Below, piece by piece: positions 35,024-40,509 of a stretch of DNA of 64,000 bases. The DNA is from Halolamina litorea (GTDB lineage: Archaea > Halobacteriota > Halobacteria > Halobacteriales > Haloferacaceae). Under the pieces are notes generated by a model. That model worked only from the letters and a program-made list of their open reading frames with translations. It was not told where the DNA came from and searched no databases. The position numbers and the translations under genes were made by a program. Numbering within the stretch: the stretch's first letter is position 1; the number at the start of each line of letters is the position of its first letter. Location of the stretch: NCBI RefSeq assembly GCF_026616205.1, contig NZ_JANHGR010000001.1:1550001-1614000 (forward strand). Direction: 5' to 3'.

Positions 35024-36928
35024 ATGGCGAGCAACAAGATCCTCGGTATCGACCTCGGGACCACCAACTCCGCCATGGCCGTCATGGAGGGTGGTGACCC
35101 CGAGATCATCGTCAACAGCGAGGGCGACCGAACGACGCCGTCCGTCGTCGCGTTCTCCGACGACGGCGAGCGACTGGTCGGCAAGCCCGCCAAGAACCAA
35201 GCGATCCAGAACCCCGAGAAGACGATCGCCTCGATCAAGCGCCACATGGGCGAGGACGACTACACCGTCGAGGCCGACGGTGAGGAGTACACGCCCGAAC
35301 AGATCTCGGCGATGATCCTCCAGAAGCTCAAGCGCGACGCCGAGGAGTACCTCGGCGACGACGTGGAGAAGGCGGTCATCACGGTCCCCGCGTACTTCAA
35401 CGACAAGCAGCGACAGGCGACGAAGGACGCCGGCGAGATCGCCGGCTTCGAGGTCGACCGCATCGTCAACGAGCCGACCGCGGCGTCGATGGCCTACGGG
35501 CTCGACGACGACTCGAACCAGACCGTGCTCGTCTACGACCTCGGTGGGGGGACGTTCGACGTCTCCATCCTCGACCTGGGCGGCGGCGTCTACGAAGTGG
35601 TCGCCACCAACGGGGACAACGACCTCGGCGGCGACGACTGGGACGAGGCGCTGATGGACCACCTCGCCGACGAGTTCGAGAACGAACACGGCATCGACCT
35701 CCGTGAGGACCGACAGGCCCTCCAGCGGCTCAAGGACGCCGCCGAGGAGGCCAAGATCGAACTCTCGAACAAGAAGGAGACGACGGTCAACCTTCCCTTC
35801 ATCACGGCGACCGACTCCGGCCCGGTCCACCTCGAACAGTCGGTCACGCGAGCGACCTTCGAGTCCCTGACCAAGGACCTGATCGAGCGGACCGTCGAGC
35901 CGACCGAGCAGGCCCTCGCGGACGCCGACTACGAGAAGGGCGACATCGACGAGGTCATCCTCGTCGGCGGCTCGACGCGGATGCCGCAGGTCCACGACAA
36001 GGTCGAGGAACTGCTCGACAGCGAGCCCAAGAAGAACGTCAACCCCGACGAGGCCGTCGCGCTGGGCGCGGCGATCCAGGGTGGCGTCCTCTCGGGCGAC
36101 GTCGACGACCTCGTGCTGCTCGACGTGACCCCGCTCTCGCTCGGGATCGAGGTCAAGGGTGGCCTCTTCGAGCGCCTGATCGAGAAGAACACCACCATCC
36201 CGACCGAGGAGAGCAAGGTGTTCACCACCGCCGCAGACAACCAGACCTCCGTGCAGGTCCGGGTGTTCCAGGGTGAGCGCGAGATTGCCAACGAGAACGA
36301 GCTGCTGGGCGAGTTCCAGCTGACCGGCATCCCGCCCGCGCCGGCCGGAACCCCCCAGATCGAGGTGACGTTCAACATCGACGAGAACGGGATCGTCAAC
36401 GTCGAGGCCGAGGACCAGGGCTCGGGCAACGCCGAGTCGATCACCATCGAGGGCGGCGCCGGGCTCTCGGACGACCAGATCGAGAAGATGCAGCAGGAGG
36501 CCGAACAGCACGCAGAGGAGGACCAGCAGCGCCGTGAGCGCATCGAAGCCCGCAACGAGGCCGAGGGCGCGGTCCAGCGTGCTGAGACCCTGATCGAGGA
36601 GAACGAGGAGAACGTCGACGCCGAGATCATCGAGAACGTCGAGGCCGCCATCGAGGACGTTGAGGAGACCCTCGAGGACGAGGACGCCACCGCCGAGGAC
36701 CTCGAAGCGGTCACCGAGGAGCTCAGCAGCGAACTGCAGGAGATCGGCAAGCAGATGTACCAGGAGGAGGCCGCAGCGGGCGGCGCCGGCGGCGCTGGTG
36801 CCGCAGGCGGTCCGGGCGGCATGGGCGGCGCCGGCCCCGGCGGCATGGGCGGCGAGCCCGACGGCGGCGACGACGAGGAGTACGTCGACGCCGACTTCGA
36901 GGACGTGGACGACGAAGACGACGAGTAG
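35024..36928 (+). CDS. dnaK: Molecular chaperone DnaK (Hsp70)
   Basis: A 634-residue Hsp70. The ATPase domain opens with [14 protein letters not shown] and contains [14 protein letters not shown] and the connect motifs VGGSTRMP; the linker [13 protein letters not shown] leads into the substrate-binding domain, and the lid and C-terminal tail end in Gly/Ala-rich then acidic sequence (PGGMGG repeats, [17 protein letters not shown]). It folds proteins together with DnaJ (40639) and GrpE (34262). The order grpE-dnaK is intact, but dnaJ lies 3.7 kb downstream. Confidence 0.98.
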
Positions 36929-36966
36929 TCGTCGTTCCCGTCGATTCGAGAGAGGAGCGAAGCGAG

Positions 36967-36972
36967 TTTTTT
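36967..36972 (+). terminator. T-run terminator after dnaK
   Basis: Six consecutive T follow GAAGCGAG about 40 bases after the dnaK stop, the usual form of an archaeal intrinsic terminator. Confidence 0.5.
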
Positions 36973-36978
36973 CGTAAT

Positions 36979-37010
36979 CCCAGGAAACCGACCCTCGGGA
37001 GGTTTCTGGG
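36979..37010 (+). repeat. Inverted repeat upstream of ProRS-like gene
   Basis: The arms CCCAGGAAACC and GGTTTCTGGG pair with one unpaired C and enclose an 11-base loop (GACCCTCGGGA). It may be part of the dnaK terminator or a hairpin in the leader of the next transcript. Confidence 0.6.
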
Positions 37011-37282
37011 CCGCATTGGAACGGAACTGGCAGCCGGTCCCTGATTGTTCACCGAGGTCGACGGCCCTGCCCGGTCCACCAGCGGCAAGATACGCGATAG
37101 GTACACACTGGCAAGGTACACTTTTGACCCACGCGCCGCAGCAGTTAGCCGATGCGTTCCACACGCAGCATCCGTGGGTCCTGCACGGCCCGTGGACACG
37201 TTCCGAAACGGTACTGAGACGCGGCTGTTCCTGTCGAGCGCCGACGCCGACCGATCCGGCTCTGTCACAACGGGGGTGACCT

Positions 37283-38572
37283 ATGCGACGGAGTGACCTG
37301 TTCCTGCCCGCCAGCCGCGAGCGCCGCGGCGAGTGGGTCGGTGCCACGCGGCTGCTGGTCCGGGCCGGCCTGATACGCGAGTTCGGAAGCGGGCTCTGGG
37401 GGCTAACCCCTGCCGGCCAGCGAGTCAAGACGAAGATCGAGGCTCGGGTCCACGACGCGATGCGTTCCGTCGGTGCCCAAGCGGCCAGCCTGCCCAACCT
37501 CCAGTACAGCGACCGGTGGCGGGAGAGCGGCCGCTGGGGGGCGTTCGAAGGCGAGATGTTCACCTTCAGGAACCGCGAGGACCGGGCGATGTGTCTGGCA
37601 CCCAGCCACGAAGAGGGGGTGGTGCATCTGCTCGACGGCCTGGTCAGGTCCTACGATGACCTACCCGTCGTGCTCTACCAGATCGACTCGAAGTTCCGGG
37701 ACGACCACGCCCGCGCTGGCCTCCTTCGCTGTAAGGAGTTCACGATGAAGGACGCCTACAGCGCTCACGTCGACGCCGATTCGCTGCGGGAGGCCTACCG
37801 CACTATGCGAGCCGCCTATCTCCGGATCTTCGACGACCTCGGACTGACCATTGCGGTCTGTGGCGCTGACAACAGCGTGATGGGCGGTGACCGCTCCGAG
37901 GAGTTCGTCGCACCCGTCGACGAGGGGAGTTGCCGGCTCACTCACTGCAGCGCCGATGGCTGCCGCTGGGGCGTCACCGACGAAGCAGCCGAGTTCGACG
38001 AGTACGCGGCGAGCGACGACTGCCCCGACTGTGGCGGTCGCCTCGCGACCGACGGCGGCGTCGAGGTCGGCCACGTCTTCGAACTCGGCACCCGGTACAC
38101 CGACGCGATAGGGCTGACCGTCGACGACCGCGACGGGGGCACGACGACCGTCGAGATGGGCAGCTACGGGATCGGTGTCACGAGGCTCCTCCAAACGATC
38201 GTGATGCAAGGGGCGTGGGAGCGCGACGGCGGCAGCGATGCGGAATCGCTCGACTGGCCCGTCACCGACTGGGGGTCGGTCGCCCCCTACCGCGCCGCGG
38301 TCGTGCCCATCGGCGACGACGATGCAGTCCGAGAGACAGCGACGGGAATCCACGACGCCATCGGCGCCGACTGCCTGCTGTTCGACGACGACCAGTCGGT
38401 GGGAGAGCGCTTCGCCGAGAGCGACCTCTTGGGAGTCCCCGCGACCGTCGTGGTCGGGAACCACTACCGTGAGACCGGCGAGGTCGAAATCGAGCGGAAG
38501 GACGGCGAGACTCGGTCGGTCACTCCCGAGTCGGTCCCCGCCGCAGTCGAGCGGTTCGCGACCGGCGACTGA
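37283..38572 (+). CDS. Bacterial-type mini prolyl-tRNA synthetase-like protein
   Basis: A 429-residue class II synthetase-like protein of the bacterial ProRS type, which normally loads proline on tRNA-Pro. The N-terminus (LVRAGLIREFGSGLWGLTPAG), PSHEE at 107-111, motif 2 FRDDHARAGLLRCKEF at 138-153, and motif 3 GSYGIGVTR at 293-301 are present. The editing insertion between motifs 2 and 3 is absent; instead a four-Cys ribbon (Cys222, 227, 247, 250) is seen. The anticodon-binding domain occupies the last 150 residues. Haloarchaea normally use an archaeal-type ProRS, so this is probably a transferred extra copy. Three AGG arginine codons set it apart slightly from its neighbours. The role may be altered. 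Confidence 0.85.
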   Translation: MRRSDLFLPASRERRGEWVGATRLLVRAGLIREFGSGLWGLTPAGQRVKTKIEARVHDAMRSVGAQAASLPNLQYSDRWRESGRWGAFEGEMFTFRNREDRAMCLAPSHEEGVVHLLDGLVRSYDDLPVVLYQIDSKFRDDHARAGLLRCKEFTMKDAYSAHVDADSLREAYRTMRAAYLRIFDDLGLTIAVCGADNSVMGGDRSEEFVAPVDEGSCRLTHCSADGCRWGVTDEAAEFDEYAASDDCPDCGGRLATDGGVEVGHVFELGTRYTDAIGLTVDDRDGGTTTVEMGSYGIGVTRLLQTIVMQGAWERDGGSDAESLDWPVTDWGSVAPYRAAVVPIGDDDAVRETATGIHDAIGADCLLFDDDQSVGERFAESDLLGVPATVVVGNHYRETGEVEIERKDGETRSVTPESVPAAVERFATGD

Positions 38573-38736: not shown

Positions 38737-40509
38737 CTACTCCGCCTCGTAGAGCTTCTCCCCGCGGTGGAGCCGCGTCGCGATGGAGAACGTCTGTTCG
38801 TTCTCCCGGCGGGTCGGGAAGTGGGCGGCCATGTAGCGTGCCGGCGCGATCAGCGCCAGCCGCCGCTCCGCCTCGGGGGCGTCCCGTGCCACGAGGGCGT
38901 CGAAGCGCTCGAACGCCCACGAGACGTTCTGGAGCGTGTGGAACCCCGCGTCCTCACGGAGCAGCCCGCGGCCCATCGTCCGCTTCAGCGCCGCCGGGTC
39001 GCCGCCGGCCGCGAAGTGCTCGGCGACGAGCGTCGCCGCGCGCTCGACTGCGCCCTGCCGGTCGAACGTCTCCAGTAGCTCCTCCCGGACCATTTCGGGG
39101 GCACGGTCACCGTCGGGCGACGGCGACGGCGCCCGCGGGCTGTTGAGGAACCGATCCAGGTAGACCGAGACCGCGGCGTCGAAACAGCCCCGGTAGAGCG
39201 CGTCCGTGCCCGTCCGTTTCGTCGCCTCGAACACCGCGTTGGCGTAGGAGAACGTGTGGTGGACGGTGTTCCAGTCGCCGAACTCGTTGCTGGTGGCGAA
39301 CCACGCCACCCGGCGTGTGGCCGCGCGGAGAACCGCGTCGGCCAGTTCCGTCCGGGTCGCGCCCCCCCGGATCGCTCCCGTGAGGGCGTCGATGATCGCC
39401 TCGGGGTCGTCACCGAGCAGCGTGTCGAGGAAGTCGTCGGGCTCGGTCCACGTCTCCCCGGCGCCGACGGCAACACAGTCGTCGAGGCGGTCGTGGGCGT
39501 CGAAGCAGAGTTGGGCGACGTCGATCGGCTCCCGCCACGAGGAGAGTTCCTCCGAGCGCGTCGCGCCGGTCAGTTGGTCGACCGTCGAGCCCAGAACCTT
39601 CGCGGCGTTGCCGTCCTCGTCGTCGCCGAGTCCCTCCCAGCCGATATGGTCGAGCGTGGCGAATGCGGTGTTGAGGAAGTCGAGCGTGTGGCCGCCGTTG
39701 AGGTACAGCGAGTCCGTCGCGGCGGTGAAGACGATGTCGGCCACGTCGTCGGGGTCGAGACAGGCCACGGCAGTCAGGAGGCAGCGCTCGGCGCCGTCGC
39801 TGTCCCGGACCTCGACGGTGTCCCGGAACCACTCCCGGAGGCGCTCCTTCGAGAGGTCACGGTTGTCGAAGGCGTACTGCTGGAAGCGCGGGGGTTCGCC
39901 GGCAGCCTCGTCGGCGACCTCACGGACGCCCGTGAACATCGCGCGGCGCTTGTCGCGGCCCCCGACCTGCGAGTAGAGGTTCGCCATGCAGCCGAGCGTG
40001 GTCAGCCCGCGACCCCAGCCGGCGGCGCGGTACTTCGTCCCGAAGTTCACGGCGGTCTCGACGGGCGTGTGAAAGCCCTCGCCGGCGTCGTCGAGGCCGA
40101 TGACGGCCTTAGCCATCACCAGTGTGAGGTCCTCGTTGAGGCCGTCGGCGAGTCGGTTGCGCCAGTGGACGCCCGGGCTCACGTCGCGGGGTGGGTCCGG
40201 GTCGAGGTAAATCTCGCCGTCGTGTACCTCGACGGGAAACGTCTGTACGTCGTCGGCCCACGGGTCGAACGTGTCGCCCTGCTCCAGTTCGAAGCGGGCG
40301 TGGTGCCAGTGGCACGTCAGGATCCCGTCCTCGACGGTACCGCGGGTGAGGGGGAACCCCATGTGCGGGCAGCGGTTGTCGACGGCGTAGACCTCGCCCT
40401 CGTGGTCGAACAGCGCGATGGCTTGTCCGTCCTGCTGGACGACGGTTCGGTCGTCGTCGAGGTCGACGAGCGACGCGACGGAGACCATCGTGTCCGTGTC
40501 TGACGACAT
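38737..40509 (-). CDS. Rieske [2Fe-2S] protein fused to a large helical domain
   Basis: A 590-residue protein. Residues 8-108 form a Rieske ferredoxin domain with CPH at 47-49 and CHWH at 66-69, the four cluster ligands. The remaining 480 residues look mainly helical with recurrent His segments ([57 protein letters not shown]), perhaps a questin-oxidase-like fold; that guess is weak. It has no membrane segment and no mononuclear iron 2-His-1-carboxylate motif of dioxygenases. It is transcribed against dnaK and dnaJ, between them. ATG 40509 is used since longer frame extensions overlap the dnaJ promoter. Confidence 0.8.

Follow-up and report, generated by a model that had tools for sequence, protein, structure and literature searches.

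The second prolyl-tRNA synthetase gene of Halolamina litorea, here called proS2 (product, ProRS2), probably encodes a conditional backup enzyme of bacterial type, turned on by a +1 ribosomal frameshift when charged tRNA-Pro runs short. As to how the leader of the gene works, we lean towards a dedicated amino-acid sensor based on hungry-codon +1 frameshifting, in which GUU-CCG in a leaderless upstream open reading frame (uORF) would be the shift site and the frame change would serve only to bring the ribosome to the start of the backup synthetase gene. This reading is supported by comparison of homologous leaders (uORF, invariant GUU-CCG, open +1 frame, position of the +1 stop, insertions and deletions in multiples of three, and hairpin covariation) and by the presence of a second ProRS, from which we infer the slip itself, the sensing of Pro-tRNA and the coupled initiation. 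The following features were assigned in the window, that is, the whole stretch of 64,000 nucleotides that was analysed.

37120-37127, plus strand: TATA-like box ACTTTTGA of the ProRS2 transcript (AT-rich box conserved in 36 leaders).
37152-37217, plus strand: uORF1, 21 codons, leader peptide MRSTRSIRGSCTARGHVPKRY followed by a stop codon (frame reading and family consensus).
37172-37195, plus strand: hairpin P2, with arms 37172-37180 CCGTGGGTC and 37187-37195 GGCCCGTGG (covariation).
37200-37205, plus strand: GTT CCG (Val-Pro), proposed +1 shift site and proline-codon sensor (invariant columns).
37201-37296, plus strand: ORF2, the +1-frame ORF running from the shift site through the Shine-Dalgarno sequence and the start codon to a stop TGA (37294-37296) inside proS2 (open-frame comparison).
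37272-37279, plus strand: Shine-Dalgarno sequence GGGGGTGA of proS2 (window and homologous leaders).
37283-38572, plus strand: proS2, P-type mini prolyl-tRNA synthetase of 429 aa without the INS domain (ORF, profiles, alignment and model).
37946-38032, plus strand: Cys ribbon C222, C227, C247 and C250 at the INS insertion point (alignment).

The ORF of proS2 was intact and began with ATG, and its product comprised a class II aminoacyl-tRNA synthetase (aaRS) core and an HGTP_anticodon domain (Pfam). ProRS2 scored 326.6 bits against TIGR00409 (proS_fam_II), above the curated cut-off of 306.7, and only 77.8 bits against TIGR00408 (archaeal/eukaryotic, E-type ProRS), below the cut-off of 437; NF006625 and NF008979 were both matched under their cut-offs, and no family among the PADLOC defence models was matched. 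The AlphaFold model (pLDDT 85.5, pTM 0.87) was closest among PDB folds to the mini-ProRS of Rhodopseudomonas palustris (2i4l/2i4n, TM 0.82-0.84) and next to INS-bearing bacterial ProRS. Profiles and fold thus bore out the bacterial-type mini-ProRS named in the preliminary description, and the ORF is, judging from homologues at about 46-82% identity in other haloarchaea, a real gene beyond chance. The motifs of ProRS2 were PSHEE, FRDD-HARAGLLRCKEFTMKDAYS and GSYGIGVTR, and the class II motifs were kept in all 39 full-length homologues examined. The INS editing domain is typical of P-type ProRS, not universal in them; alignment with bacterial enzymes confirmed, as first described, that the haloarchaeal copies lack it and have four Cys residues in its place. 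These residues were invariant or almost so among the homologues (four-Cys pattern in 35 of 39), and the ribbon may bind zinc. ProRS2 shares its class II core and its motifs, as well as its fold and its anticodon domain, with the TIGR00409 family, and it lacks INS like the alphaproteobacterial mini-ProRS 2i4l; it differs from bacterial-type ProRS in its separate clade, in a motif 2 loop shorter by 1 residue in the alignment (RDEIRPR to RDD-HAR), in the Cys ribbon at the INS site and in mostly bearing PSHEE, and also in that it is co-resident with a ProRS of archaeal type and meets a tRNA-Pro that is archaeal (G1:C72).

An archaeal ProRS was encoded in the same genome (C1:992413-993855; 532.6 bits versus the TIGR00408 cut-off of 437), so that ProRS2 is a paralogue, as had been supposed, and not the only ProRS of its source genome. 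Among 392 haloarchaeal genomes ProRS2 was found in 39 (about 10%), in a patchy distribution over 18 genera, 17 of which had at least one leader-bearing copy; homologues also occurred in named records. The archaeal ProRS was co-resident in 37 of the 39 carriers; the other two, G012 and G039, are genomes of one genus (about 2.1-2.2 Mb, 99% complete) with ProRS2 as the sole ProRS. A loose search of these two genomes for another ProRS returned, apart from ProRS2 itself, just weak hits on other frames resembling synthetases, and their tRNA-Pro genes were of the ordinary archaeal type, with G1:C72 and A73. ProRS2 can thus evidently serve as the sole ProRS, in which role it would have to charge archaeal tRNA-Pro bearing G1:C72 and A73. 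This genus, without the archaeal ProRS and dependent on leaderless ProRS2 alone (L041 of G039, L042 of G012), represents a natural synthetase replacement. A further leaderless copy, bearing PTHEE (L043, G008:C11:33441-34628), lay in one genome with a leader-bearing copy and an archaeal ProRS; it clustered with the sole-ProRS genus, and the G008 genome was 81% complete.

These genomes bear also on the suggestion, made at the outset, that ProRS2 is a non-canonical activator serving a special tRNA, a special amino acid or a non-ribosomal product. Its being a paralogue with S for T in PTHEE, a motif 2 loop deletion and a Cys ribbon would fit such a role; its conserved catalytic motifs, the lack of conserved partner genes and its position as sole ProRS in G012 and G039 argue the other way, and we regard the suggestion as very improbable. 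No special tRNA was found in the 64-kb window. No neighbour or operon partner of ProRS2 was conserved across genera, the neighbours varying by genus, and a conserved operon partner was dropped from consideration. In the window, a 590-aa Rieske-like protein was encoded between proS2 and dnaJ (38737-40509, minus strand), and its gene was absent at this spot in L027 of the same genus, so that the dnaK-dnaJ gap accepts insertions. Viral carriage was ruled out, since the viral contigs searched held no relative of ProRS2; the phage and plasmid matches were bacterial proS at <60% identity.

Outside the G012/G039 genus, ProRS2 is dispensable as judged by genome comparison. Four other genomes of the same genus as the source genome were sampled, and it was missing from three of them (G183, G213 and G373); in G027 (L120) and G224 (L121) the leader and the first proS2 codons were left and the rest of the gene was deleted; and the copy of Halolamina pelagica was frameshifted in its draft. 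Haladaptatus halobius (G190; L046/L070 and L071) contained three broken or partial copies with both leader types. In phylogeny, the haloarchaeal ProRS2 formed a single clade apart from nine bacterial references (support 100/100), and haloarchaeal families were intermixed in the gene tree; therefore transfer among haloarchaea is likely. A resistance or backup copy, also raised at first, has become more likely through the patchy distribution, the decay of copies and the conserved leader with its invariant Pro codon.

The gap between the dnaK stop (36928) and the proS2 start, given as 354 non-coding bases in the preliminary description, had that length (354 nt) and was misjudged as non-coding: within it lie a box resembling a promoter element and a uORF that is conserved. 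Conservation of the leader was met by aligning upstream regions, in which a block, at first seen as a hairpin, was kept far past the promoter. The AT fraction was 0.75-1.00 at positions -32 to -28 from the uORF1 start codon (36 leaders), and uORF1 starts about 29 nt downstream of the AT-rich box; from this spacing, the transcript probably starts at or beside the uORF1 start codon, and uORF1 would therefore be leaderless. Across 17 genera, 38 homologous leaders each contained a uORF of about 18-28 codons, with ATG as start codon in 36 and probably GTG in two (L033 and L034), and with the family consensus M...NRxSG.ARGWVPR-stop or ...TARGRVP..-stop. GUU-CCG, shortly before the uORF stop, was invariant in all 38 uORFs, and GTTCCG was the only invariant run of six columns in the core alignment. 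GTT makes up 4.8% of Val codons in the carrier genomes, yet is invariant at this site; CCG accounts for 50% of Pro codons, more than any other, and uORF1 has only one Pro codon. GGAGGTG or GGGGGTG occupied the place equivalent to the Shine-Dalgarno sequence in most homologous leaders. A second conserved motif, ACUGnUUCU-like and not a conserved peptide, was seen about 10-35 nt past GTTCCG; its candidacy as an anti-Shine-Dalgarno element was dropped, as folding gave no consistent partner.

When the 392 genomes were searched with a leader model, strong matches were confined to sites preceding proS2 or what deletion has left of it (G027 and G224). The next-best match was at an unrelated gene (G106, 36.5 bits), and matches below about 37 bits in or near unrelated genes (L122-L126) were treated as chance. 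Rfam gave no match, T-box riboswitch or other, over 36900-37400 up to E 10. The tRNA-Pro anticodons of the source genome (G000) were TGG and GGG; tRNA-Pro(CGG) was not found among its 42 tRNA loci, of which L152 and L160 were left unassigned by ARAGORN.

Read in the +1 frame, the stretch between GUUCCG and the proS2 start was open in all 38 leaders; the remaining (third) frame was open in 9 and interrupted by stops in 29. The distance from GUUCCG to the proS2 start took 24 values (62-179 nt), 22 of which were 2 mod 3, and within genera 21 of 22 leader length differences were multiples of three. As the lengths keep frame, translation of the spacer is suggested. The +1 frame stopped at nt +11/+14 of proS2 in 36 of 38 leaders; of the two exceptions, L068 ends at TAATG and L032 reads on, fusing to ProRS2. 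This stop was mostly made by rare codons at Arg3/Ser4 (CGT-AGC or CGR-AGT-GA; CGT is 6.3% of Arg codons and AGT 5.5% of Ser codons), and normal synonymous codon use would give a stop of the +11/+14 type in 9% of genes. The stop was absent in the leaderless copies (G012, G039 and the second G008 copy). Substitutions in ORF2 had no codon-position bias (52:55:62), because of which selection seems to act on the passage of the ribosome through ORF2 and not on its peptide; for the same reason, ORF2 as a functional peptide was ruled out. The trans-frame peptide predicted for the window reads ...TARGHV-RNGTETRLFLSS... (...ARGHV-RNGTETR...). An in-frame N-terminal extension of ProRS2 was ruled out by in-phase stops in many leaders.

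The openness of the +1 frame was assessed by shuffling one leader per genus-level group (18 groups, Haladaptatus entered as two), which gave log10 P = -9.0. Unrelated upstream regions of 98 nt used as controls were open in the +1 frame in 84 of 152 cases; real upstream regions are thus often open, and therefore the shuffle P overstates the effect. At a probability of 0.55 over 18 groups, the chance of +1 openness was about 2e-5. An open frame together with a stop at the +11/+14-type position was found in 8 of 152 control genes. The stop position, the frame-keeping indels and the codon choice were taken as further lines of evidence that partly overlap with openness, and the leaders are related by descent, so that the counts overstate independence.

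How ribosomes would come to read the +1 frame was considered next to two accounts that need no frameshift. In one, ORF2 would be a second leader ORF with a GTG start of its own, translationally coupled to proS2. A +1-frame GTG does lie at -8, -17 or -26 from GTTCCG in most leaders; its position varies, however, with GTGs sitting in or beside the conserved hairpin, and some leaders have only a distant TTG or ATG. A conserved +1-frame start codon was sought in the leaders and none was found, L061 having no start codon in that frame, and the peptide is not conserved, all of which makes an independent ORF2 improbable. In the other, classical leader-peptide control, a stall at the Pro codon or of the nascent ARGxVP would rearrange the RNA and free the proS2 start. 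The invariant Val-Pro near the uORF end, the partly conserved peptide ARG[WRH]VP and the covarying hairpin overlapping the uORF agree with such control, and stalling would be the first step of the frameshift model too; the open +1 frame, the frame-keeping indels and the rare-codon +1 stop in proS2 are left unexplained by it, and we hold it to be unlikely, though still the most serious competitor. A frame change inside the uORF would be the simplest account of the comparisons.

Pairing of hairpin P2 was examined over 32 distinct leaders, in which 97.2% of cells were paired, against 32-44% in slid controls. Double changes were found in 20 cells versus 7.0 (sd 1.9) after shuffling, with none of 500 shuffles as high. 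The hairpin overlaps the uORF and its 3' end lies 4 nt upstream of GUU, where it may stop the ribosome from slipping back or hold the leader closed. The Shine-Dalgarno sequence and proS2 start were mostly paired in folding; the leaders are GC-rich, the predicted partners differed and none was conserved, and the leader of the window folded no better than its shuffles (z +1.43). A reading of the hairpin as an anticodon mimic (CGCGG-CUGGGUU-CCGCG) was rejected, the alternative stem being lost when the 5' arm changes. Autoregulation through binding of ProRS2 to the leader hairpin, as in E. coli thrS, draws on the covariation of this hairpin and on its place shortly before the shift site. The hairpin is, however, far upstream of where proS2 starts, its loop does not consistently resemble the anticodon loop of tRNA-Pro, and the frame constraints would be left unexplained, which makes autoregulation the least probable of the alternatives, with hardly any claim to consideration. 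The leader as a pure RNA element or a DNA operator was dropped given the uORF frame, the frame-preserving indels and the codon choices; RNA pairing may still act as a second layer.

In the frameshift switch that we favour, the transcript would begin at or next to the short uORF. With ample Pro-tRNA, GUU-CCG would be read in the uORF frame, the ribosome would stop one to a few codons further on, and little ProRS2 would be made. When Pro-tRNA is scarce, from inhibition of the archaeal ProRS or from proline starvation, the A-site CCG would stay empty and the P-site tRNA-Val would slip by +1 from GUU to UUC. As a Pro codon, CCG in the A site is read by the tRNA that the product of the downstream gene would charge. 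By pairing rules, tRNA-Val(GAC) would wobble on GUU and its anticodon would keep two pairs on UUC, where the middle pair is kept and G-U becomes G-C; GUC-CCG would not permit this slip. The shifted ribosome would read the +1 frame past the Shine-Dalgarno sequence and the start codon of proS2 and end 11-14 nt inside the gene, and termination there would let proS2 translation initiate by coupling. More speculatively, the system may usually be triggered by a compound that inhibits the archaeal enzyme and to which the bacterial-type pocket is resistant. The promoter spacing, the confinement of leader matches to their own sites and the leaderless proS2 of G012 and G039 were counted for the frameshift switch; the single Pro codon, the use of CCG, the commonest codon for Pro, and the loss of the leader in carrier G182 (L066), although an archaeal ProRS is present there, were counted against it.

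Leader-peptide control of synthetases is known in bacteria, where auxiliary aaRS genes stand under attenuation (e.g., TrpRS1 of Streptomyces), and hungry-codon slippage has long been familiar as a mistake that starved cells make. Bacterial aaRS attenuation likewise involves a second synthetase of patchy occurrence, preceded by a leader with codons for its own amino acid; it needs no frame change, whereas just one codon, combined with a shift of frame, is proposed here. GUU-CCG is, to our knowledge, not among the known shift sites. Slippage at hungry codons is caused by an A site left empty for want of aminoacyl-tRNA, and in Ty1 (CUU_AGG_C) a slow A-site codon favours the +1 slip of the P-site tRNA (PMC5009743). 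The slow A-site codon would be common to both systems; Ty1 yields a fusion protein, whereas here ribosome passage seems to be the output. In the ermC leader, a ketolide-induced frameshift lets the ribosome enter the spacer and permits the downstream protective gene to start, the trigger being the ribosome-bound drug, largely independent of the nascent peptide; a review names it as the case of productive leader frameshifting, frameshifting in pheL being incidental (PMC5009743). The proS2 leaders resemble that of ermC in their short leader ORF (38 leaders) and in an alternative frame open into the target start (38 of 38). They differ from it in that the GUU-CCG is fixed, the +1 frame is open in every leader and ends within the target gene, the target is an aaRS and the host is an archaeon. 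A review of programmed frameshifting in Archaea counts a single verified example, a -1 shift in Saccharolobus fucA1, besides a putative +1 shift in halovirus HSTV-2 (PMC8211752); these share with the present proposal a frame change in an archaeal mRNA, and none of them is regulatory in a leader. Searches of the open-licence literature, outside which most subscription papers lie, gave nothing relevant on a second bacterial-type ProRS in haloarchaea or on frameshift-coupled amino-acid leaders.

We know of no earlier conserved frameshift switch controlling an aaRS, nor of a regulatory +1 frameshift in Archaea; if true, the proS2 switch would be the first of each known to us. A conserved leader with a frame change as its signal would turn starvation frameshifting into a sensor. 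ProRS2 also presents a natural experiment in synthetase replacement, being an inducible-looking backup in 17 genera and the sole, leaderless ProRS in the 18th. It is also a hint that salt lakes may contain undescribed natural compounds that inhibit archaeal ProRS.
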